A stretch of DNA of 64,000 bases from Cellulomonas wangsupingiae. Lineage in GTDB: Bacteria > Actinomycetota > Actinomycetes > Actinomycetales > Cellulomonadaceae. Each line of letters starts with the position of its first letter. The stretch's first letter is position 1. The notes beneath the pieces are model-generated. The model had not been told where the DNA came from and did no database searches. It saw only the letters and a program-made list of their open reading frames with translations. Both the position numbers and the translations under genes were made by a program. The DNA lies in NCBI RefSeq assembly GCF_024508275.1, contig NZ_CP101989.1, forward strand, positions 4,054,099 through 4,118,098, read 5' to 3'. This document shows, piece after piece, positions 31,705 through 63,209 of this stretch.

Positions 31705-33174
31705 TCACCCTCGGGGCGCTGCCACCGCCGCCACCGGGTTGAGCATGTCCGGCCCTTCCGGGCCGTGCGGCACCCGCACGCTGGTGCCGGACACGGGGTC
31801 GACGAGCAGCAGCGTGAGCGGCGAACCGTCACCAGGGCACGGCCCCGGGCCGGTGGAGACGGGCAGGAGCCCGCCGTTGCCGTGGTCGGGCTCCACACCG
31901 CCCCCGGCACCGTCCATGTCGCGGTCGGTGACGAGCGGTCGCACCGTCCCGTCGGCCGCCAGGACGGCGGGGGTCGTGCACCAGGGATCGAGGGACGTGC
32001 CGAGCGGCGCGACGCCAGCGGCCAGTGCGCCGTCCCCGGCCGGCTGACCGAACCACGGCACCGGGTCGCCGGTCACCAGCTCACGCACGACGAGCGGCTC
32101 CCGCTGTCCCGTCACGTCCGCGCGGACCAGCCGCGGCCGCGTCGACGACTCGGACGGAGGCGTGGACGTGCCGGCGTCGGCACACACGAGCAGGACGGAC
32201 GTCGCGTCGGTCCACCCCCCCGGCCGGCACTGCTGACCGGCCGGCACGAGCGAGGCGCTGAGGGACGTGCCGGTGGCCAGCTCGACGACCTCGACGCCGC
32301 TGCCCCCCGGGTCGAGGTACGCGTCGAGCCACAGGAGGGCACGCCGGCCGTCGGGGCTCAGCTGTGCGCGGTGGCTGAGCAGCCAGGGCCCGCCCGGGAC
32401 CTGCTGCGCCGCACCGCTCCTCGGCACCGTCCACAGGGTCGACCCGACCCCGCCCATGCTCATCTGCTGCCACACCTCGGTGCCGTCGGGCTGGTTGCCC
32501 ACGTGGAGCGTGTAGGGCGGCAGGCCACGGCCGTCGGGGGTGACGGCGCCGGTGCGCAGGTCGACGACCGTGCGCGTCTCGTCCGGGCCCCCGGAGGCCA
32601 GCACCACCGTGTCGGCGTCGGGCCAGGCGACGGGCGCCGGCGAGACGTCGGCAGGCAGGTCGACGGCGTGGAAGAGCTCCCCCGCCGGCGAGACGACGAC
32701 GAGGACGACCGGCAGAGCGGTGCCGTCCTCCTGGAACGGGTCACCTCCGGTGCTCTGGTAGCCCACGACGCCCCACCCGGGGCCGATCGCCGCGAGGGTC
32801 GCGGCGTCCAGCGCGTGCATGGGCGGCATGCCGACGCGCTCCACGGCCACGCGCTCCACGGCGTCCACCGTGGCCGTCGGGCTCGCGACGGGTCGCGGTG
32901 AGACGGGCGACGTCGGCGTCGGGGTGTGCGCCGGCGTCGGGGTGTGCGCCGGCAGCGGCACGTCGCGGTCCTGCAACCCGAACCACCCCGCGGCACCGAC
33001 GACGAGCACGGTCGCGGCAGCCACCGCCGAGTACGACGTCGTGCGGCCCCGGCGCGCCCGGCGGACCCGCGCGTGCAGGTCCTCCAGGGCCTGCGGGGAC
33101 GGCTGGGTGCCGGTCTCGAGCTGCTCCTGCACCTGCAGGCTCCGCTCCAGGCGGCTGGTCAGGTCGTCGCTCAT
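31705..33174 (-). CDS. sigma-module 1 membrane protein (putative anti-sigma/sensor)
   Basis: A 489-residue single-span protein. The cytoplasmic N-terminus (about 45 residues, with QALEDLHARVRRARRGR) is followed by one helix SAVAAATVLVVGAAGWFGL, a Pro/Thr linker of TPTPAHTPTPTSP type, and a large extracytoplasmic domain with repeated Trp/Gly/Asp strand pairs suggesting a beta-propeller. It contains C-R-P-G-G-W-x-D-A-T-x(5)-C, also present in the two paralogs at 35088 and 40333. No zinc anti-sigma motif (HxxxCxxC) is seen. The start overlaps the ECF sigma stop as ATGA. A sensor or anti-sigma role is inferred from pairing and topology only. Confidence 0.75.
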   Translation of the reverse strand: MSDDLTSRLERSLQVQEQLETGTQPSPQALEDLHARVRRARRGRTTSYSAVAAATVLVVGAAGWFGLQDRDVPLPAHTPTPAHTPTPTSPVSPRPVASPTATVDAVERVAVERVGMPPMHALDAATLAAIGPGWGVVGYQSTGGDPFQEDGTALPVVLVVVSPAGELFHAVDLPADVSPAPVAWPDADTVVLASGGPDETRTVVDLRTGAVTPDGRGLPPYTLHVGNQPDGTEVWQQMSMGGVGSTLWTVPRSGAAQQVPGGPWLLSHRAQLSPDGRRALLWLDAYLDPGGSGVEVVELATGTSLSASLVPAGQQCRPGGWTDATSVLLVCADAGTSTPPSESSTRPRLVRADVTGQREPLVVRELVTGDPVPWFGQPAGDGALAAGVAPLGTSLDPWCTTPAVLAADGTVRPLVTDRDMDGAGGGVEPDHGNGGLLPVSTGPGPCPGDGSPLTLLLVDPVSGTSVRVPHGPEGPDMLNPVAAVAAPRG

Positions 33175-33722
33175 GACGCACCTCCTCGACGGTCGACGAG
33201 CGTGACGGACGACGCCTCGGCGTCCGGAGCCGATCTGGTGCCCAGCAGGGCGTCGAGGGTCGCGACGCCGTCCGAGACGTGCCGCTTGACGGCCCCCTCG
33301 CTGATGCCGAGCAGACGTGCGGTGTCCCGTACGGACACGTCGTCGAGGTGCCGCAGCACGACGCACGCCCGTTGCTGGGGCGACAGCGAGCCGAGCGCGG
33401 CCGCGACGTCCGCGTCGAGCATCTCCGAGCGCAGCTCGGTGTCCTCGGCGGTGGCGTGCGCCAGACGCACCACCGCGGTCCTCTCGCGGGCCCGGCGGCG
33501 CGTGCCGTCCACGAACCGGGACGCCACCGCCCGGCGCACGTACGCCTCGGCCTGCGGCACCGACCCGAACGACGCCCGGGCGCTGAACGTGCTCACCAGC
33601 GCGTCGTGCACCACGTCCTGGGCCTGCGCGCGATCACCCGTGAGCACGGTCGCGTACGCCACGAGCCCGCCGTACCGCTCCTGCACGAGCCGGTCGAGCA
33701 TCGGCGCCCATCCCTGGCTCAC
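33171..33722 (-). CDS. ECF RNA polymerase sigma factor (SigE-family-like), module 1
   Basis: A 183-residue two-domain sigma factor. Region 2 contains AYATVLTGDRAQAQDVVHDA and AEAYVRRAVASRFVDGTRRR. Region 4 contains LSPQQRACVVLRHLDDVSVR and DTARLLGISEGAVKRHVSDG. It directs core polymerase to specific promoters. GTG 33722 start. About 60 bp upstream is AACC-N16-CGTT, shared with the other two modules and of the usual ECF -35/-10 form, suggesting autoregulation. It overlaps the membrane protein gene. Confidence 0.93.
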   Translation of the reverse strand: MSQGWAPMLDRLVQERYGGLVAYATVLTGDRAQAQDVVHDALVSTFSARASFGSVPQAEAYVRRAVASRFVDGTRRRARERTAVVRLAHATAEDTELRSEMLDADVAAALGSLSPQQRACVVLRHLDDVSVRDTARLLGISEGAVKRHVSDGVATLDALLGTRSAPDAEASSVTLVDRRGGAS

Positions 33723-33782
33723 GTCGTCCCCGTCATCTCAGCGTCCCCGTCTCCGCCGGCCCACGTCGGCCGTTCGCACTAC

Positions 33783-33806
33783 AACGTCGCAGGGCCCTCG
33801 CCGGTT
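33783..33806 (-). promoter_or_regulatory. ECF-type promoter, module 1
   Basis: Minus strand: AACC (33806-33803), 16 bp, CGTT (33786-33783). Identical elements with the same spacing precede modules 2 and 3. Confidence 0.6.
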
Positions 33807-33870
33807 GTGGGCCGACCGGCCGCGGCCCGTGCGTCCGTCGCGCACACCGCAACGACCGTCCCGACCCGCG

Positions 33871-33915
33871 GGTGTGCAGGGTTCGTGGTGCTCAGCGCCA
33901 CGAACCCTGCACACC
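33871..33915. repeat. 45-bp hairpin repeat, left copy
   Basis: Perfect 18-bp arms, GGTGTGCAGGGTTCGTGG and its complement. It agrees at 41 of 45 positions with the right copy at 35028-35072, the two bracketing one gene. Confidence 0.85.
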
Positions 33916-33983
33916 CCGGCGCGTCGTCCACAAGGTCGGCGTCCGCCGGCCCGGGGGGCCGTCCGGTGCGGGAGCGTGGCGGG

Positions 33984-35051
33984 GTGAGCTCGTCCGTGGT
34001 GCGCTCGGTGGGGTCGGTCCCCGGGGCGTCGATGCTGCTGTCCGGCCGTGGCGCGGCGTCGGCGCGGCGGGTCGACGTCGGCGGGATCCCGGCGCTTCGG
34101 GAGCTGGGCGACGCGTTGCGTGCGACCGTCGTGCGGCAGGACGGTGTCGCGACGACCGCGCAGCTCGCCGCCGGCGGCGTCGAGAGGTCGGTCGTGGCTC
34201 GCCGCGTGCGCAGCGGCCACTGGCAGCGGGCCGTGCGCGGCGTGGTCGTGCTGCAGTCCGGCCCGCCGACGTGGCGTCAGCTCGCCCGGGCGGCCCTGCT
34301 GGCCGCCGGTCCGGGCGCCGCCCTGTCGCACCGGTCGGCCGGGTTCGTGCACGGTCTCCTGCGCGACCCGGGCAGCGGCTTCGTCGTGAGCGTCCCGGCG
34401 CAGCGGTACGTCGTCGCCCGGCCAGGGCTGACCGTGCGACGGCGACGGACGATGCCGCGCTCGTCCGGCTCGCTGCGCAGCGTGGACATCTTCGGCACGG
34501 TGCTCGACCTCGTCCACGAGACGGCCGACGACGACGCGGTCGTCGCAGTGCTGTGCGACGCGGCGCGGCTGCGCGTGCCGACCTCCCAGGTGGTCGACGA
34601 GGCCGCGGGGCGCACGGGCCTGCGCCACCGTGCCCTCCTCCTGGACGTGCTCGGCGACCCGACGGCGCGGGTCGAGTCCCCGCTGGAGCACCGGTACGAC
34701 CGTGACGTCGAGCGGGCCCACGGGCTGCCGCGCTCGCTCGGCCAGGTGGCGGACCGCGTCGACGGCCGACGGATCCGCTCCGACCGGCGGTACGCCGCCT
34801 GGGGTGTGCGGGTCGAGCTCGACGGCCGGCTCGTGCACGCCGGCCGCGTCGACGCCGACGTGTGGCGCGACAACGCCGTGCGCGTCGAACGCGGCGACGT
34901 GACCCTGCGGTACCGCTGGCGCCACGTGGCGGGTGCCCCGTGCGCGACCGCCGCCCAGCTCGCCGCGGCCCTGCGCGCCCGCGGCTGGCCCGGCTCACCT
35001 GCCCGCTGCTCCCCCGACTGCCGGGTGGGTGTGCAGGGTTCGTGGTCCTGA
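33984..35051 (+). CDS. AbiEi-like winged-helix / DUF559-like protein
   Basis: A 355-residue protein. The N-terminal part (VVRQDGVATTAQLAAGGVER, RRVRSGHWQRAVRGVVVL) is the winged-helix of type IV antitoxin AbiEi-like proteins. It is followed by ARAALLAAGPGAALSHRSAG. The C-terminal part, VRVELDGRLVHAGRVDADVW then RDN and TLRYRWRHV, matches the DUF559/Vsr-like endonuclease pattern. GTG 33984 with GGGAG 9 bp upstream decides the start. The two 45-bp hairpins bracket it, and its TGA lies in the loop of the right one. No toxin partner lies beside it. A DNA-binding, possibly nicking, selfish or defence protein is conceivable; function unknown. Confidence 0.75.
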   Translation: MSSSVVRSVGSVPGASMLLSGRGAASARRVDVGGIPALRELGDALRATVVRQDGVATTAQLAAGGVERSVVARRVRSGHWQRAVRGVVVLQSGPPTWRQLARAALLAAGPGAALSHRSAGFVHGLLRDPGSGFVVSVPAQRYVVARPGLTVRRRRTMPRSSGSLRSVDIFGTVLDLVHETADDDAVVAVLCDAARLRVPTSQVVDEAAGRTGLRHRALLLDVLGDPTARVESPLEHRYDRDVERAHGLPRSLGQVADRVDGRRIRSDRRYAAWGVRVELDGRLVHAGRVDADVWRDNAVRVERGDVTLRYRWRHVAGAPCATAAQLAAALRARGWPGSPARCSPDCRVGVQGSWS

Positions 35052-35072
35052 GCACCACCAACCCTGCACACC
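35028..35072. repeat. 45-bp hairpin repeat, right copy
   Basis: 19-bp arms with one mismatch around CCTGAGC. Overlaps the last codons and stop of the AbiEi-like gene. May also act as its terminator and as that of the convergent module 2. Confidence 0.85.
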
Positions 35073-35087
35073 TCGCGCCGACGGTCG

Positions 35088-36632
35088 TCAGCGGGCAGGG
35101 ACGACGTCGACGGACGTCACCCGCCAGTCCCCGTCCTCGACGACCTGGTCGACGTCGCCCCGGTCCTCGAACCAGGACACCGTCGTGACGTCACCCGTCG
35201 CCAGGTCGACGCGGACGGTGCGCTGCGGATCCGCCCGGCCACCCGCGTAGCAGCCGTTGAGGAACGTCCAGACGCCGCCGCCGGCGAAGGTCAGGTCCGT
35301 GCCGTGGTCGTACGGCGACCAGCCCTCGGTGAGCGAGCGGACCGTGCCGTCCTCGAGCACGGCCGGGTCGGACGTCACGTCGCACGGCGCGGGCATCACG
35401 ACCCGTCCGAGCCCGACGCGCCCGTCACCGAGGGGCCAGGCGTCCCGCACGGGGACGTCGCTGGTCGCCAGGGGCGTCGCGGGTCGGTCCTGCGCGACGT
35501 CGACGGCGGCCAGGCGCCACGCGCCGGCACCGTCCGGGCAGGCCGTGAGCACCGCGTGGGCGCCGGCCCACCCGGCGAGGCGGCACGCGGGGTCGGCGGG
35601 TGCGCCGGCGACGGGATGCGTGGCGCCGGTGCGCACGTCGAGGCCCAGCAGCCCGCCGTCCGGCGCGTGCAGGGCGAGCCACGCGCGGTCGGGGCTCAGG
35701 GGGTGCAGCCGGTGCGGCAGCGCCACGTCGCCCAGGTCGCGGGTCGTGCCGTCGGCGGCGACCAGGCGCAGCGTGCCGGCGGTGTGCAGCACCGCCGCGG
35801 GGTCCTCGCCGGTCGCCGCCACCGCCTGCTCCGGATCGAGTGCGACGCCGTACCCGGGTGCGATCGGCGAGTAGTGGGAGCGCTGCTCCGCGTCGAGCGC
35901 GAGCAGCTCCGCCGGCATCTCGGAGAACAGCCACGCGGACTCCCCGGTCGCGGTGAGGCCGAGCGGGTGACGTTCCCAGTCGAACGGCACGGGTGTCAGG
36001 ACCCCGGTGGTCAGGTCGAGCAGACCCTCGAAGGACCCCTCCCCCTCCCAGGGGGACGCGGCTGCGAAGGCGGTGGGCTCCCCGACGCGCCAGTCGTCGA
36101 CACCGGCGGCGAAGGCCCCGTCGACGTCGAGCAGCGGGGTCCGCTCGCCCGTGGGTGCGACGAGCGCGATCACCGTGCGCCGGTTCGCGGGGTCCCACGG
36201 GGCGGCGCCGCCCTGCCCCGCGCGCTCCTCGACGACCGTCGCCAGCGTCCAGCCGGGACCGGCCGCCGCGAGCAGGTCCGCGACCGGGACGTCCCGCGGC
36301 GAGGCCACCTGGACCGGTGCGCCCAGCGGCAGCAGGGTGCCCGGCGACGCGGTCGGGGCGGCGCTCGGCACGGCGGCGCTCGGCGTGACCGAGGGCACCG
36401 GGTCGACAGCGGCGGGCGGCACGACCCCGCCCTGGGGACCCCACGTCGTCAGTCCCGCCGCCGCGACGACGACCAGCGCGCCGACGCCACCGCGGCGCAC
36501 GTCGCGCAGGACGCGACGGCGACGGACCGTGCGACGGGCGACCGCGAGCGCGGCGTCGGACGGTCGGGCGTCCGCGTGGGCACGTTCGACGTGCTCCTCG
36601 ACGCCGCCGAGCAGGTGTCCGAGGTCAGTCAC
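35088..36632 (-). CDS. sigma-module 2 membrane protein (putative anti-sigma/sensor)
   Basis: A 514-residue single-span protein paralogous to those at 31705 and 40333. The cytoplasmic part ends RRTVRRRRVLRDVRRGG; the helix is VGALVVVAAAGLTTW (about residues 50-65). An Ala/Pro/Ser linker leads into the extracytoplasmic domain. The shared motif appears as C-R-L-A-G-W-x-x-A-x(6)-C, and later PCDVTSDPAVLEDGTVRSL matches a segment of module 1. GPGWTLATVVEE corresponds to GPGWGVVGY in module 1. GTG 36632 overlaps the sigma stop by 8 bp. Role inferred as for module 1. Confidence 0.75.
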   Translation of the reverse strand: MTDLGHLLGGVEEHVERAHADARPSDAALAVARRTVRRRRVLRDVRRGGVGALVVVAAAGLTTWGPQGGVVPPAAVDPVPSVTPSAAVPSAAPTASPGTLLPLGAPVQVASPRDVPVADLLAAAGPGWTLATVVEERAGQGGAAPWDPANRRTVIALVAPTGERTPLLDVDGAFAAGVDDWRVGEPTAFAAASPWEGEGSFEGLLDLTTGVLTPVPFDWERHPLGLTATGESAWLFSEMPAELLALDAEQRSHYSPIAPGYGVALDPEQAVAATGEDPAAVLHTAGTLRLVAADGTTRDLGDVALPHRLHPLSPDRAWLALHAPDGGLLGLDVRTGATHPVAGAPADPACRLAGWAGAHAVLTACPDGAGAWRLAAVDVAQDRPATPLATSDVPVRDAWPLGDGRVGLGRVVMPAPCDVTSDPAVLEDGTVRSLTEGWSPYDHGTDLTFAGGGVWTFLNGCYAGGRADPQRTVRVDLATGDVTTVSWFEDRGDVDQVVEDGDWRVTSVDVVPAR

Positions 36633-37176
36633 GACGCACCTCCGGTGCGGGGATCAGCTCGACGGGGACGGTGCCACCGGTGAGCGCGGGGGTCCCGAGG
36701 CGCGCCTGCAGGCGCGCGGTGCCGTCGGACGTGTACCTCTTGACGGCCCCCGCGCTCAGGCCCAGAGCGGTGGCGGTCTGCTCGACGGACAGGTCGTCGA
36801 CGTGCCGCAGGACGACGCACGCGCGCTGCCGCACCGACAGGGTCTGCAGGGCCTCGACGATGTCGCGGTCGAGGCCTGTCGGCACGAGCTCGTCGGCGGG
36901 GTCGGGCCAGGACACGCGACGTTCGACGGCGCGGCGCTCGGCGGCGGCCGTCCGTGCCCGGTCGATGGACCGGGTCACGATCGCGCGCCGCACGTACTGC
37001 TCGGCCTCCCCGACCGACGTGAACCGTGCCCGCCCCGCGAAGGTCGCCACGAGCGCGTCCTGCACGAGGTCCTCCGCGTCCGCGCGCGTCGTGACGAGCA
37101 GCGCCGCGCGCGCCAGCAGCCGGGGGTAGCGCTCCCGCGCCACCTCGTCGAGCAGCCGTTCCCAGCTCCTGGCCAC
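36625..37176 (-). CDS. ECF RNA polymerase sigma factor (SigE-family-like), module 2
   Basis: A 183-residue sigma factor. Region 2 has ARAALLVTTRADAEDLVQDA and AEQYVRRAIVTRSIDRARTA. Region 4 has LSVRQRACVVLRHVDDLSVE and ATALGLSAGAVKRYTSDGTA. GTG 37176 with AGGAGG 5-6 bp upstream fixes the start; the frame runs further upstream but is not coding. AACC-N16-CGTT lies 35-58 bp upstream. It is close to modules 1 and 3 throughout both domains, so the three arose by duplication. Confidence 0.93.
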   Translation of the reverse strand: MARSWERLLDEVARERYPRLLARAALLVTTRADAEDLVQDALVATFAGRARFTSVGEAEQYVRRAIVTRSIDRARTAAAERRAVERRVSWPDPADELVPTGLDRDIVEALQTLSVRQRACVVLRHVDDLSVEQTATALGLSAGAVKRYTSDGTARLQARLGTPALTGGTVPVELIPAPEVRRD

Positions 37177-37210
37177 ACCGTCCTCCTCGTCCGCGGACCC
37201 CAGGATGGAG

Positions 37211-37234
37211 AACGGAGCCCGTCCCCGAAAGGTT
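37211..37234 (-). promoter_or_regulatory. ECF-type promoter, module 2
   Basis: Minus strand: AACC (37234-37231), 16 bp, CGTT (37214-37211). It lies in the divergent space shared with the MFS gene at 37283. Confidence 0.6.
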
Positions 37235-37282
37235 GGGGGGGCGATCGGCTGCCTGCGGGGTACGGGGACGTAACCTTGGCAG

Positions 37283-38593
37283 GTGCAGGTGATCTCCGAC
37301 CTCAGGGCCCTGTGGCCCCTGACCGGCTTCCGCCGGCTCTTCGCCGTCCGCCTGGTCAGCCAGGCGTCCGACGGCATGTTCCAGATCGGGCTCGCCACCC
37401 TGTTCTTCTTCTCGCCGGAGAACGCGTCGACGGCCACGGGCGTCGCGGCCGCGTTCGCGGTGCTGCTGCTGCCGTTCACGATCGTCGGGCCGTGGGCCGG
37501 GGTCCTGCTGGACCGGTGGCGGCGCCGGCAGGTGCTGCTGTACGGCAACCTCGTGCGGGTCGCCCTGACGCTCGTCATCGCGACGATCATGCTGACCAGC
37601 GGCGTCGGGCCCGCGGTGTACGTCCTGGCGCTGGTGACGCTGTCGGTCAACCGGTTCCTGCTCGCGGCGCTGTCCGCGTCGCTGCCGAAGGTCGTCGACG
37701 GCCCGCTGCTGCTGACCGCGAACTCGCTGACCCCGACGCTCGGGGCCGCCGCTGCGGGCGTCGGCGGGGCGCTCGGCTTCGTGCTGGGGCTGCTGCTGCC
37801 CACGGGCCGGGTGCGCGACGCGGCCTGCCTGCTGGTCGCCGCCGCCGTCATGGGCTGCGCGTCGGCGCTGGCCACGCGGCTGGCGCCGGACCAGCTCGGC
37901 CCGGACCAGCGTGCCGCCGGCTCCGACGTGCGCGCCGCGCTCGGCGAGCTGGCCCGCGGGCTCGTCGCGGGGGCCCGGTACCTGGTGGCGCGCCGCACGC
38001 CGGCGTACGCGCTGGGCATCATGGCGCTGCACCGGTTCTGCTACGGCGCCGTGTTCATCGCCAGCATCCTCATCTCCCGCAACCTGCTCTCCGACCCCGC
38101 GGACGCGGCCGCCGGCCTGGCGACGTTCGGCAGCGTGCTGGCCGCGAGCGCCGTCGGGTTCGCGCTCGCGGTGGTCCTGACGCCGGTGCTCAGCCCGCGC
38201 GTCGGCCCGCACGTCTGGATCGTGCTGTGCCTGCTGCTCGCCGTGGTCAGCCAGCTCGTCCTCGTCGTGAACGTGTCGCTGCCCGCCGTGCTGCTGGCCG
38301 GCGGCGCGCTGGGCCTCGCGGCGCAGGGCGCGAAGATCGCGGTCGACACGATCGTGCAGCACGACACCGCCGACGCGTACCGCGGCCGCGCGTTCTCGCT
38401 GTACGACGTCATGTACAACGCCGCGTTCGTCGGCGCCGCGGCGCTCGCCGCCGTCGCGCTGCCGGACACGGGGTGGTCGCCGGTGCTGTTCGCGGCGCTC
38501 GCGGCGGTCTACCTGGCCGGTGCGATCACGTTCGCCCGCGGACCGCGGACGCCGGCGGTCGTCGAGGCACCCGTGGTCGGTGCCCCCACATGA
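37283..38593 (+). CDS. MFS transporter
   Basis: A 436-residue, twelve-span major facilitator. The start is WPLTGFRRLFAVRLVSQASD, and the loop signature GVLLDRWRRRQVLLYGNLVR is typical. The mid-protein loop is long and the second half contains YRGRAFSLYDVMYNAAFVGA. Such proteins are often annotated as multidrug or permease-like. GTG 37283. The stop overlaps the ATG of the LOV phosphatase as ATGA, so the two proteins are made together, a noteworthy pairing. It is divergent from sigma-module 2, and its promoter region overlaps the sigma promoter. Confidence 0.88.
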   Translation: MQVISDLRALWPLTGFRRLFAVRLVSQASDGMFQIGLATLFFFSPENASTATGVAAAFAVLLLPFTIVGPWAGVLLDRWRRRQVLLYGNLVRVALTLVIATIMLTSGVGPAVYVLALVTLSVNRFLLAALSASLPKVVDGPLLLTANSLTPTLGAAAAGVGGALGFVLGLLLPTGRVRDAACLLVAAAVMGCASALATRLAPDQLGPDQRAAGSDVRAALGELARGLVAGARYLVARRTPAYALGIMALHRFCYGAVFIASILISRNLLSDPADAAAGLATFGSVLAASAVGFALAVVLTPVLSPRVGPHVWIVLCLLLAVVSQLVLVVNVSLPAVLLAGGALGLAAQGAKIAVDTIVQHDTADAYRGRAFSLYDVMYNAAFVGAAALAAVALPDTGWSPVLFAALAAVYLAGAITFARGPRTPAVVEAPVVGAPT

Positions 38594-40326
38594 GCGACGC
38601 GGGCACGGTCACGCCCGACGGCGCGCCGGCGTACGACGACGCGCTCGGTCCCGACGACCTCCTGTCGGGGCCCCTCGCCCACGCGATCCTCGAGGGCGGG
38701 CCCCTGGCGATGGCGGTGTCGGACCCGCGCCTGCCGGGCGACCCCCTGGTGTGGACGAACGCCGCGTTCACGTCCCTGACCGGGTACACGGCGGAGGAGG
38801 TCCGCGGCCGCAACTGCCGGTTGCTGCAGTGCGAGGACACCGACCCGCAGGTCGTCGCGCGCATCCGCGCCGCGCTGGAGCGCGGCCACGACGTGCAGGA
38901 GGTGCTCCTCAACGCCCGCAAGGACGGTTCGCAGTTCTGGAACCAGCTGGCGATCACGCAGCTGCGGGACGACGAGGGCCGCGTGACCCACCGGGTCGGC
39001 GTGCAGGTCGACGTGACCGCGGAGGCCGTGGGCGACGCGGCCCGCGACCTGGAGCTGTCGCTCATGCACCGCACGGCGGACCGGCTCGAGCTGCTCGCGC
39101 GCGTCGGCGAGGAGGTGTCGCGGCACCTGGAGTACGACGACGCCGTCGACGCGCTGGCGGACCTGGTGGTCCCGCGTCTGGCGACGTGGGGCTTCGTCGC
39201 GATGACCTCCGAGACGGGCCGCCTGGAGCGGGTCCACGTCGTGGCGTCGGACCCGGAGCACGCGTCGGCCGCGCACGCGCTCGGCACGCAGGGCACGACG
39301 TGGCTCATGCACTCCCCGCGGGTCGCCCAGACGCTGGCCGCCGGCGTCGACCACGTCCCGATGCCGCTGCCCGTGGACATCGCGAGCCTCCCGGGGCGGA
39401 CGACCCCCGACGAGCTGCAGCTGCTGCAGACCCTCGGCCTGGGCAGCGCGCTGCTCGTCCCGCTGACGGGCCGGGACCGGGCGCTGGGCGTGCTGTGCCT
39501 GGTGCACCATGAGGTCGACGGGTTCGACCGCGAGATCGTCGTCACCGCGGCCCACCTGGGACGACGTGCGGGCGTCCTGCTGGAGAACGTGCGGCTGTAC
39601 CTCGCGGAGCGCGACGCGGCGCTCACCCTGCAGCACAGCCTGCTGCCGGTGCTGGGCGACGTCGGCGGCCTCGACGTCGCCGCCTCGTACCTGCCGTCGG
39701 GGCGCCGGGCCGAGGTCGGTGGTGACTGGTTCGACGCGTTCGTGCTGCCCGACGGTGCCGTGAGCCTCGCCGTCGGCGACGTCGTGGGCCACGACCTGCG
39801 GGCCGCGGCCTCCATGGGGCAGCTGCGCTCGCTGCTGCGCGCGGCCGTGTGGCGGGGCGACCGCCCCGGTGAGGCGCTGGAGCGCCTGGACGGCCTGGTG
39901 CGGGCGCTCGACGTGGCCGACGTCGCCACCTGCGTGCTCGTCCGCTGGGAGCGCACCGACGACGGCGCGCACCTCACCTGGGCGAGCGCGGGTCACCCCC
40001 CGGTGCTGGTCCGGCTGCCCGGCGGGCACGTGCACGGCCTCGACGGCGGGCGCAGCACACCCATCGGCCTGCCCCCGGTCCGCCCCGGCACGGTCCCCGA
40101 GGTGTCGGGCGAGCTGCCGCACGGCGCGATCATGGTGCTCTACTCCGACGGTCTGGTGGAGCGCCGCGACCGCGGCCTGCGCGAGGGCATCGACGCGTTG
40201 TCGGCCGCGCTGTCCGCCGTCCCGGACGACGCGAGCGCGACGCAGGTGTGCGACGCGCTCACCGACGCGCTCGTCGACGAGCACCAGGAGGACGACGTGT
40301 GCCTGCTGGTGGTCCGGCTCGACTGA
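38590..40326 (+). CDS. LOV-GAF-PP2C (SpoIIE-type) serine phosphatase, putative blue-light sensor
   Basis: A 578-residue cytoplasmic protein. Residues 35-145 form a LOV-type PAS domain: NAAFTSLTGYTAEEVRGRNC, with the photoactive-type Cys at about 76 in GRNCRLLQ. The flavin-contacting Asn residues are in LNARKDGSQFWNQL and Gln in VGVQVDVT. A GAF domain follows (about 165-335). The PP2C/SpoIIE phosphatase (350-575) has GGDWFDAF, GDVVGHD, YSDGLVERRD and EDDVC with the metal-binding Asp residues. It should bind FMN and change phosphatase activity in blue light, usually towards an anti-anti-sigma STAS protein; none is in the window. ATGA overlap with the MFS gene. Confidence 0.9.
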   Translation: MSDAGTVTPDGAPAYDDALGPDDLLSGPLAHAILEGGPLAMAVSDPRLPGDPLVWTNAAFTSLTGYTAEEVRGRNCRLLQCEDTDPQVVARIRAALERGHDVQEVLLNARKDGSQFWNQLAITQLRDDEGRVTHRVGVQVDVTAEAVGDAARDLELSLMHRTADRLELLARVGEEVSRHLEYDDAVDALADLVVPRLATWGFVAMTSETGRLERVHVVASDPEHASAAHALGTQGTTWLMHSPRVAQTLAAGVDHVPMPLPVDIASLPGRTTPDELQLLQTLGLGSALLVPLTGRDRALGVLCLVHHEVDGFDREIVVTAAHLGRRAGVLLENVRLYLAERDAALTLQHSLLPVLGDVGGLDVAASYLPSGRRAEVGGDWFDAFVLPDGAVSLAVGDVVGHDLRAAASMGQLRSLLRAAVWRGDRPGEALERLDGLVRALDVADVATCVLVRWERTDDGAHLTWASAGHPPVLVRLPGGHVHGLDGGRSTPIGLPPVRPGTVPEVSGELPHGAIMVLYSDGLVERRDRGLREGIDALSAALSAVPDDASATQVCDALTDALVDEHQEDDVCLLVVRLD

Positions 40327-40332
40327 GGCGCG

Positions 40333-41628
40333 TCAGCGCCAGGTCGTCGACGAGAGCAGGCCGAACGGGGCCGCCGGGTCCTCGTGCACCGGCAGGAGCT
40401 CGTCGACCCGGCCCGTCGCGAGGTCGAGCGCCCACATCCCCGAGGCCGTGAGGTCCGTGGGGCACCCCGGGGGCCCGGCGACGACCACGCGCCCCGGGGC
40501 CGCGACGAGTCCCCGGTGCACGAGGTCCCCGGCAGGGACCGCGGGAAGCGGCGTGCCCGCCAGGCCGTCGAAGCGTCCCAGGCCGGTCCCGCACACGCGG
40601 GCCACCGCGTCCCCGTCCACCTCGCGCCCGACGACGTCGACCTGTGCCACCACGCTGCCGTCGCCGAGCGGGATCCCCGTGCGGTCCGTCGGGACGACGT
40701 CACCGGTGACCAGCGCGCGCCGGGTCGTGCCGCCGGTGACGGTGTCGAGGAGGACGAGCGCCGGACCGTCGGCCTCGGCGGGGACGAGCGTGCGCGGTTC
40801 GCGGTCGAAGCACGTGAGGAGCAGGTGCGTGGCGTCGGACCAGCCCGCGGGCCGGCACCACCGGCTCGGCAGCTCCAGCTCGCGCTCGCCGGCGCCGGCC
40901 CGCAGGCGGACGACGGCGCCCTGGACGTCCGCGGTCGTCGTGCCGTCCGGGGAGGTCGGCAGGAGACTCTCCGCCGACGGCGGCACGGGCGTGGTCGCGC
41001 CCGTCAGCAGGTCGACGGCGATGCTCTCGCTGTCCCCGCCGCCCGTCGCGGTGATCACGCTCGCCGACGCCGCGGCTCGGTCCCACCCGCCGACCGTCAC
41101 CGCGTGGTCCGGTGCGCGCACGACGTGGCGCACCTCGCCGTCGGGACGCACCAGCAGGAGGTGCACCTCCCGGTGCCCCGCGTCCGGGGCACCGTCGGCG
41201 AGATCGAGCAGCGTGTCCGGCGTCCACAGCGCCAGGACGGTCCCGGGGGGTGCGTCGCGCAGCTCGTCCGGTGCGGCGGACAGCATCGGGGGCAGCCCGC
41301 CGACCTCGACGGTCGCCGTGCTCGGCGCGACGGGGGGTGACGCCGCCGGGGTCGGGGAGGCCGTCGGCCGGGTCGGCTGCGGGACCGTCGACGCGGGCGC
41401 CGCAGGCGGCACGGGCGCGCGGGGCGACCACAGGACCACGCCGCCGACGAGCAGCACGGCGGCCGCCGTGCCCGTCACCGCGAGCGCCGTGCGGCGCGTG
41501 CGGGCCGCGCGGACCGCCGTCCGCACGCTCGCCACGCTCGCCTCCGTCGGCGACGCCGCGAGCGCGGCCTCGCGCTGCGCCTCGGCCGTGTGCAGCACGT
41601 CCGTCAGGTCCGGCGTCCACTCAGCCAC
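40333..41628 (-). CDS. sigma-module 3 membrane protein (putative anti-sigma/sensor)
   Basis: A 431-residue single-span protein, third paralog. The cytoplasmic part is about 50 residues (RTAVRAARTRR before the helix), the helix ALAVTGTAAAVLLVGGVVLW, then a Pro/Thr/Ala linker. The extracytoplasmic domain has VEVGGLPPMLSAAPDELRDA, comparable to GMPPMHALDAATL in module 1, and the motif C-R-P-A-G-W-S-D-A-T-x(5)-C. GTG 41628 overlaps the sigma stop by 8 bp and has AGGAG 6 bp upstream. The gene is convergent with the LOV phosphatase, only 6 bp apart. Confidence 0.75.
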   Translation of the reverse strand: MAEWTPDLTDVLHTAEAQREAALAASPTEASVASVRTAVRAARTRRTALAVTGTAAAVLLVGGVVLWSPRAPVPPAAPASTVPQPTRPTASPTPAASPPVAPSTATVEVGGLPPMLSAAPDELRDAPPGTVLALWTPDTLLDLADGAPDAGHREVHLLLVRPDGEVRHVVRAPDHAVTVGGWDRAAASASVITATGGGDSESIAVDLLTGATTPVPPSAESLLPTSPDGTTTADVQGAVVRLRAGAGERELELPSRWCRPAGWSDATHLLLTCFDREPRTLVPAEADGPALVLLDTVTGGTTRRALVTGDVVPTDRTGIPLGDGSVVAQVDVVGREVDGDAVARVCGTGLGRFDGLAGTPLPAVPAGDLVHRGLVAAPGRVVVAGPPGCPTDLTASGMWALDLATGRVDELLPVHEDPAAPFGLLSSTTWR

Positions 41629-42184
41629 GGGACTCCTCCTCGGTCGGCACGAGGCGGACGCGCACGCCTGCCCGCTCGGGGTCGGGCGCCCGCACGCCCA
41701 GCAGCGCCTGGAGCGCGCGGACCCCGTCGGCGGTGTAGCGCTTGACCGCCCCGTCCGACAGGCGCAGCAGCACCGCGGTCTCGTGCACCGACAGGTCCTC
41801 GAGGTGCCGCAGCACGACGCACGCCCGCTCGCGGGGTGCGAGCGTCGCGAGCGCCCGCTCGACGTCGTCGGCGAGCGCGGTCGACGCCTCGGCAGGGTCC
41901 GGTGCAGCCGCGACGGGCAGTGCCGCGAGCCGTGCGGCCCCCGCACGCTCCCGGCCGCCGCGGCGCAGGCCGTCGACGTACCTGGTCGCCAGAGCGCGTC
42001 GGACGTACTGCTCGGCGGCGGGCACGCTGCCGAACCGGGCGCGGCCGACGAACGTCGCGACGAGCGCGTCCTGCACGAGGTCCTGCGCGGCCGCGGGGTC
42101 CCGCACGAGCATGCGGGCACGTGCGAGCAGCGCCGGGTAGCGGACGCGGACGAGCTCGTCGAGCACGTCGTCGGAGCGCGTCAC
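41621..42184 (-). CDS. ECF RNA polymerase sigma factor (SigE-family-like), module 3
   Basis: A 187-residue sigma factor. Region 2: ARARMLVRDPAAAQDLVQDA and AEQYVRRALATRYVDGLRRG. Region 4: LAPRERACVVLRHLEDLSVH and AVLLRLSDGAVKRYTADGVR. AACC-N16-CGTT is 39-62 bp upstream. Next to it, tail to head, is cca. It is probably regulated by the membrane protein encoded after it. Confidence 0.93.
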   Translation of the reverse strand: MTRSDDVLDELVRVRYPALLARARMLVRDPAAAQDLVQDALVATFVGRARFGSVPAAEQYVRRALATRYVDGLRRGGRERAGAARLAALPVAAAPDPAEASTALADDVERALATLAPRERACVVLRHLEDLSVHETAVLLRLSDGAVKRYTADGVRALQALLGVRAPDPERAGVRVRLVPTEEESRG

Positions 42185-42222
42185 GCGCGCGCCCCGGGCC
42201 TGGTGGTCGTCACACGCTGAAC

Positions 42223-42246
42223 AACGTCCGCACGGCGAGAACGGTT
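42223..42246 (-). promoter_or_regulatory. ECF-type promoter, module 3
   Basis: Minus strand: AACC (42246-42243), 16 bp, CGTT (42226-42223). Around it CCCAACC and GACGTTGT repeat words of modules 2 and 1. Confidence 0.6.
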
Positions 42247-62912: not shown

Positions 62913-63209
62913 TCAGTGCGCGGCGGAGGCCGCGTCGAGCGAGTGGTGGTCGTCGCGCGACGGAGGAACGTCGTCGACACCACCGGGGTTCCAGGGGTGG
63001 CAGCGCGCCACCCGGCGCACCGCGAGCCACGCCCCGCGCAGCGCACCGTGGCGCCGCACCGCGATGACCGCGTACTGGGAGCACGACGGGTAGAACCGGC
63101 ACGTCGGCGGCCTCAGCGGCGAGATCAGGTGCTGGTAGACCCACAGCAGCCCGAGGAGCACGCCGCCCGGCAGCCGCCGGACCGTCGTCCACACCTCGCG
63201 CAGGTTCAT
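62913..63209 (-). CDS. yidD: membrane protein insertion efficiency factor YidD
   Basis: A 98-residue protein with the family core [40 protein letters not shown] (conserved Cys residues) and [13 protein letters not shown]. An amphipathic helix binds the inner membrane face. Lies between rnpA and yidC as in most bacteria. Confidence 0.96.

Follow-up and report, generated by a model that had tools for sequence, protein, structure and literature searches.

What does it mean that three sigma factor genes in one chromosomal stretch, each overlapping the gene of a putative membrane protein, are all preceded by the element AACC-N16-CGTT? The stretch in question (hereafter the window) takes up the final 64 kb of a 4.12-Mb Cellulomonas contig, the only one of its genome, and a preliminary description of it had reported the element, the sigma factor open reading frames (ORFs) and the overlapping ORFs of their membrane partners. 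All of these were confirmed, the ORFs by their translations and the three elements by exact match, each on the minus strand (Table 1). We read the three gene pairs, here modules 1, 2 and 3, as autoregulated sigma/anti-sigma units of the extracytoplasmic function (ECF) type, each made up of two genes, with its own promoter as chief target and probably partly insulated from the other two, and we put the probability of this reading at about 0.72. The evidence for it includes the conservation of one promoter form before related sigma genes and the rarity of the fuller form of the element anywhere else.

One promoter form before the sigma genes and their relatives

Within the window, AACC-N16-CGTT is found four times where 0.42 matches are expected, and none of 100 shuffles reached four. 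Three of the copies end 60, 34 and 38 nt before the start codons of sigma genes 1, 2 and 3, respectively; the fourth, absent from the preliminary description, ends 76 nt before a gene of the YidC type according to Pfam. For a view of the relatives, 60 genomes of the genus (own genome included) were searched with an alignment of six sigma factors. This gave matches at E <= 1e-20 in 59 of the 60, other sigma genes also being caught, and from the matches listed we assembled a set of 86 loci, six from the own genome and 80 from the genus, taking the best-scoring first and then picks that covered further genomes.

AAC-N-N16/17-CGT, counted as AACn, spacer and CGT, was present within 206 bp upstream in 85 of these 86 related sigma loci, and in all 85 promoters a C stands directly before AAC. 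The sole locus without it (L189) has, by eye, ATCC in place of AACC. Upstream matches fell on the sigma strand 88 times and on the opposite strand 14 times, and the density was 88 in 17,716 upstream bases compared with 33 in 90,810 coding strand-bases of the same loci. In ortholog alignments, the element appears as a conserved block. The promoter form was also found in 18 of the 21 loci inspected (of 80) in a second, wider set, some of which overlap the 86-locus set, again with C before AAC in every case (18/18). Carriers in the wider set include Demequinaceae, Promicromonospora, Nocardioides and Kineococcus, and the three loci without the form are L066, L131 and L078.

The -35/-10 form of ECF promoters, which the preliminary description had recognised in the element, is thus supported, and its presence before 85 of 86 related sigma genes makes it very likely that the elements act as promoters. 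One could argue from the core of only eight bases, and from the four sites that a reversed control gives in the genome, that the AAC/CGT matches are chance words in GC-rich DNA; against the 85 of 86 loci, the preference for strand and spacing and the conserved blocks in ortholog alignments, we regard this as practically negligible. The identical 16-bp spacing holds for the three window sites but not as a general rule, as the spacer is 16 in 61 of the 85 related promoters and 17 in the other 24, and the orthologs of the middle module, module 2, use both. Spacings of 12 and 13 likewise skew forward (13 vs 1 and 9 vs 1).

The fuller element is rare elsewhere

The preliminary description had proposed that further chromosomal copies of the element would make up a regulon. 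The genome-wide search that it envisaged found 20 exact AACC-N16-CGTT sites in the own genome as compared with 4 for the reversed control, and did not bear the proposal out as stated: 11 of the 20 are GG-AACC, nine of them before other kinds of gene. A single regulon of all 20 sites was rejected on the bases before AACC, which are GG in 11/20, C in 6/20 and neither in 3/20; three of the six C-AACC sites are the window modules. Ten ORFs downstream of exact sites, the start of each chosen by hand, all matched Pfam families (10/10), and nine of them lie behind GG sites (L002, L003, L004, L006, L008, L010, L011, L014 and L020, the last being the fourth window copy). These nine genes mostly encode membrane or envelope proteins (TPM, UPF0114, AcrB type, RelA_SpoT, YajC, CNNM/CorC, UPF0182, TelA and YidC type), and it is possible that the GGAACC-N16-CGTT genes constitute an envelope-stress regulon of another ECF factor.

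A fuller pattern derived from the module-type promoters, CCCAAC[C/G]-N16/17-CGTTnT, gave 67 sites in 33 of the 60 genus genomes, with 4 for the reversed control. Fifty-three of the 67 lie <=150 bp before a sigma locus from the alignment search. Another six (L344, L348, L349, L351, L353 and L355) were recognised by inspection as standing directly before such a sigma ORF, which looks interrupted or shifted in four of them, so that 59 of the 67 sites in total directly precede such a sigma gene. The remaining 14 beyond the 53 are completed by L346, ~350 bp before a sigma gene, and by seven sites elsewhere, a number near the control of 4. A wider regulon was not seen at this full consensus in the 60 genomes. 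With the fuller promoter confined almost entirely to positions in front of such sigma genes, the main target of each pair is probably the pair itself. This self-addressed pattern, i.e., the rarity of the full element anywhere else, is to us the most interesting part of the analysis: what began as a curiosity of three sites becomes a family rule, one promoter form before 85 of 86 relatives. If true in cells, the sigma factors would have to be seen less as controllers of genes at a distance than as surface-sensor switches complete in themselves.

A different arrangement would be for another ECF factor, in place of the own sigma, to read the promoters and switch all modules together. AAC/CGT is a generic ECF form, and for several sigma-E promoters of Streptomyces coelicolor, recognition by additional ECF factors is presumed (PMC6767563). 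However, the -10 in the own genome differs by sigma clade (CGTT vs CGTC), the CGTC form goes with one clade across the 85 loci, with only 2 changes on the tree, and the sites, which stand immediately before sigma genes, have few counterparts elsewhere at full consensus, all of which makes a common foreign regulator distinctly improbable.

Old paralogs with group-specific promoter flanks

Pfam Sigma70_r2 and Sigma70_r4_2 were matched above cut-off by all three sigma factors, which have no other sigma regions (183-187 aa). Their best NCBIfam match is TIGR02983 (SigE family), at 120.9, 121.9 and 114.1 bits for sigma 1, 2 and 3, each short of the curated cut-off of 141.55 bits. A search of the own genome with the TIGR02983 profile returned 30 matches at E <= 0.001, two of them above cut-off (183.6 and 142 bits); each of these two sigma genes also overlaps a gene whose product has a hydrophobic span, and CAACC-N16-CGTC lies upstream of one of them. 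Three further sigma genes in the genome, a tandem pair near 3.10 Mb and a single gene at 2.86 Mb, belong to the close group, membership being judged by sigma sequence, overlap and promoter.

Recent divergence of the three modules, one of the options suggested earlier, is not supported: each window sigma has orthologs of its own that are closer to it than sigma 1 is to the other two. Sigma 1 is 49% identical to sigma 2 and 56% to sigma 3, compared with best ortholog identities in other species of 82, 86 and 80% for sigma 1, 2 and 3. A quick tree, built by maximum likelihood from 77 of the sigma factors of the 86-locus set (nine loci lie outside it), puts the three in different ortholog clades, which comprise 5, 4 and 6 rows and have supports of 100, 99 and 98, and a recent duplication was rejected on this ground. 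Two genomes (G045 and G053) preserve the succession of the sigma genes in the direction of transcription (3, then 2, then 1), and a third (G016) has sigma 3, an interrupted-looking sigma 2 and sigma 1. The interrupted-looking ortholog (L351, G016:C23:273900-275800) retains a module 2 type promoter and is followed by sigma 1 after a few hundred bases, which gives the impression that the bulk of module 2 has gone. Judged by their sequences, the three window modules are old paralogs with a common core promoter and group-specific flanks, and the elements are evidence neither of recent duplication nor of a shared distant regulon. With their order conserved, such paralogs would lend themselves to a natural test of how promoter specificities stay separate once genes have duplicated.

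The flanks themselves are well conserved within each ortholog group. CCCAC before AACC and CGTTGTA are found in 5/5 module 1 orthologs (two of these rows, L166 and L172, have nearly identical sigma factors), CCCCC and CGTTCT in 4/4 module 2 orthologs, and CGTTGT in 5/6 of the more variable module 3 orthologs. Recognised promoter positions differ at 1.03 of 16 within groups versus 2.93 of 16 between them, and the low difference within groups speaks for selection acting on the elements. Group membership shows in the spacer ends as well (3.87 of 9 positions within vs 5.73 of 9 between), and therefore descent may contribute to the flank differences. We also compared sigma residue 116, which we take to match the -35-contacting arginine of the housekeeping sigma factor, with the base two before AAC: glutamine goes with A in 11/13 and arginine with C in 70/72, and two of four independent comparisons agree, the other two showing no difference.

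These data bear on whether the three sigmas read one another's promoters and so form one redundant or cross-talking set, as the preliminary description had considered. The AACC-N16-CGTT core is common to all three, the promoters of sigma 2 and sigma 3 differ little, and two ECF factors of Corynebacterium glutamicum have overlapping regulons (PMC10012870). On the other hand, the flanks are group-specific and conserved, though descent may have a share in this, and residue 116 tracks the base two before AAC, but in just half of the independent comparisons. We consider cross-talk on this scale unlikely, if still a serious contender, and our guess is that the three modules are partially insulated.

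Partner proteins

The overlap of sigma and partner genes is a constant feature. The partner starts in the window are offset from the sigma stops by -4, -8 and -8 in modules 1, 2 and 3, and an overlapping partner start, which precedes the end of the stop codon of sigma by 1-14 nt, was found in all 86 loci. Partner 1 consists of a short basic N-terminal tail, then one hydrophobic span and then a large outer domain. Among the 86 partners, of which only the first ~150 residues were read in the 80 relatives, the hydrophobic stretch exceeds 1.5 on the hydropathy scale in 75 and lies at 1.34-1.49 in 11. Tail length is 37-53 residues in the 75 partners measured, and an arginine cluster precedes the span in 75/75. 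By hydropathy, then, the partners have the short tail and single span of Tt-TolB-like membrane anti-sigma factors.

Partner 1 has no Pfam family at E <= 0.1, and Pfam on seven aligned partners gave two one-member matches (E 0.028 and 0.052) that are too weak to use. The best solved-structure matches of window partners are also weak (E 0.016 and 0.0032); the structures matched are presumably WD40 propellers, and a propeller fold is weakly indicated. By eye, the partners encoded at 3.10 and 2.86 Mb share the tail pattern of the window partners and differ from them in their outer parts. This would agree with one sigma-binding tail, common to all, to which exchangeable sensors are joined.

It may be asked whether the partner is an anti-sigma factor at all, and not a positive co-factor or the very product that the sigma factor exists to make. 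No known anti-sigma domain was matched, and as the partner is alone in the overlap with sigma, it would be an output of the loop in any case. Yet the overlap, the single span and the tail of 37-53 residues fit the layout of short-tailed anti-sigma factors (PMC3397946; PMC7406223), and a role as positive co-factor or end product is in our view improbable.

Proposed mechanism and points against it

We propose for each module the role of an ECF signalling unit made up of two genes. Its partner protein would span the membrane once, with a cytoplasmic tail of ~45 residues that ends in the arginine cluster and a large outer domain, and the tail would keep the sigma factor inactive. An outside signal or proteolysis would then release the sigma factor, which would direct RNA polymerase to CAAC[C/G]-N16/17-CGT[T/C], chiefly at its own promoter. 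Sigma factor and partner would thus be produced together, giving a positive loop with a built-in brake. The gene overlap, the layout, the conservation of the promoter, the orthology and the near-absence of other full CGTT-type sites are direct observations, upon which anti-sigma action, self-recognition, the signal, the topology and the insulation are predicted.

Several points weigh against this reading. No Pfam anti-sigma domain is found in the partners. The full-consensus pattern was derived from these promoters and many of its 67 sites belong to the deriving loci, and hence what it shows is the scarcity of the full element at other places; it is no measure of how common the element is in front of sigma genes. 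Nor does the pattern cover module 1, which has CACAAC. For the same reason of derivation, weaker or CGTC-type targets beyond the modules could be missed. Indeed, looser patterns gave more sites in the own genome than their controls did: CAAC[C/G]-N16/17-CGTT has 19 sites (control 7), 4 of which are modules, and [A/C]CAAC[C/G]-N16/17-CGT[T/C]nT has 39 (control 6), of which 35 are CGTC. Inspection of 29 CGTC sites placed 20 in same-strand coding-like frames and 9 not, by a test that is crude, because module promoters also fall in such frames (it flags 1/3 window promoters, and 3/4 module promoters in another set).

The four CGTT sites among the 39 are the three modules and one at 2,299,007-2,299,034 (L009, L287), which is the genome's single CAAC[C/G]-N16/17-CGTTnT site outside the modules and is located between divergent ORFs in a mobile-element-like stretch. 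For CC[A/C]AAC[C/G]-N16/17-CGT[T/C], the own genome has 18 sites as against 7 for the control. Four of the 18 are promoters of modules, and another (L259), ending 54 nt upstream of an ORF that probably encodes a membrane protein, is a possible target.

Beyond the window, there might be a large actinobacterial family of closed-loop ECF modules, in which the own operon would be the sole strong target of each sigma factor in the genome, so that what is switched on would chiefly be the surface sensor. Several old paralogs in a genome would have the same core promoter, with promoter flanks and outer domains keeping them apart. We put this extension forward as tentative and somewhat doubtful.

Other features of the window

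The coordinates are collected in Table 1. The ORF between modules 1 and 2 is flanked by two 49-nt copies, 90% alike, that overlap its end. Each forms a near-perfect hairpin, with arms of 23 and 22 nt and complementarity of 96 and 91%, and these may be terminators or members of a repeat family. A PAS-GAF-SpoIIE phosphatase gene sits between modules 2 and 3; its PAS part contains the letters GRNCRLLQ, which we take to be typical of blue-light LOV domains. Scans of the 64 kb with Rfam (gathering threshold) and for tRNAs gave no matches.

Table 1. Positions of the three modules and other features in the 64-kb window
Feature	Position	Strand	Basis and remarks
Promoter-like element, module 1	33783..33806	-	CCCAC-AACC-N16-CGTTGTA; exact match; flanks same in 5/5 orthologs
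Sigma factor gene 1, SigE-like ECF, 183 aa	33171..33722	-	Translation; sigma-70 regions 2 and 4
Partner 1, 489 aa, probable anti-sigma factor	31705..33174	-	Translation, hydropathy, overlap
Promoter-like element, module 2	37211..37234	-	CCCCC-AACC-N16-CGTTCT; exact match; ortholog spacers 16 or 17
Sigma factor gene 2, 183 aa	36625..37176	-	Translation
Partner 2, 514 aa, layout of partner 1	35088..36632	-	Translation; weaker hydrophobic span (1.35)
Promoter-like element, module 3	42223..42246	-	CCCC-AACC-N16-CGTTGT; exact match; footprint in orthologs
Sigma factor gene 3, 187 aa	41621..42184	-	Translation
Partner 3, 431 aa, layout of partner 1	40333..41628	-	Translation
Fourth AACC-N16-CGTT copy	62967..62990	-	GGAACC form
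49-nt hairpin copy	33870..33918
49-nt hairpin copy	35027..35075
PAS-GAF-SpoIIE phosphatase gene	38590..40326

Relation to known systems

Among the matches listed in the open-licence literature, we found no paper on these Cellulomonas modules. By best NCBIfam match, the window sigmas resemble the TIGR02983 family and S. coelicolor SigE (ECF39, PMC8999054), and S. coelicolor sigma-E promoters likewise conserve AAC in the -35 (PMC6767563). S. coelicolor SigE, however, is switched by the CseBC two-component system, whereas the window sigmas have a membrane partner whose gene overlaps their own. The Cellulomonas-typified group ECF122 was set aside by description, because its conserved neighbours are methylguanine methyltransferases (PMC8999054). 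The sigma-E/sigma-H promoters of C. glutamicum, GGAAC-N16/17-CGTT, have the same spacing and -10 core as the module promoters, but carry GG before AAC where the modules have C (PMC10012870). This GG form fits 11 of the 17 non-module exact sites in the genome and no module promoter.

As for the partners, the anti-sigma segment of class II anti-sigma factors such as CnrY is <50 residues (PMC7406223), which puts the window tails in the same length class, a likeness of length alone. A precedent is Tt-RpoE1/Tt-TolB of Thermoanaerobacter tengcongensis, as described in PMC3397946, where the sigma gene lies beside that of a protein which spans the membrane once, has a large outer domain and extends a short tail into the cytoplasm. 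Tt-TolB, a membrane anti-sigma factor of the TolB type, has a tail of 39 residues, and its sigma factor is autoregulated, as we propose for the window modules; the difference is that a propeller fold of the window partners is only weakly indicated. Finally, ECF factors were originally defined by promoters of the AAC/CGT kind, by an anti-sigma factor transcribed along with the sigma gene and by positive autoregulation (PMC8103513). The modules share with this canonical form a sigma factor of regions 2 and 4 only, an AAC/CGT promoter before the sigma gene and an overlapping membrane partner, and differ from it in that the window partners are without a recognised anti-sigma domain and no targets beyond the module are seen at full consensus. 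With these features and the Tt-TolB-type precedent, the statement in the preliminary description that no such system had been described is overstated. The modules are ordinary self-promoted units of a widespread ECF family, in an arrangement that is common and not a new kind of system.

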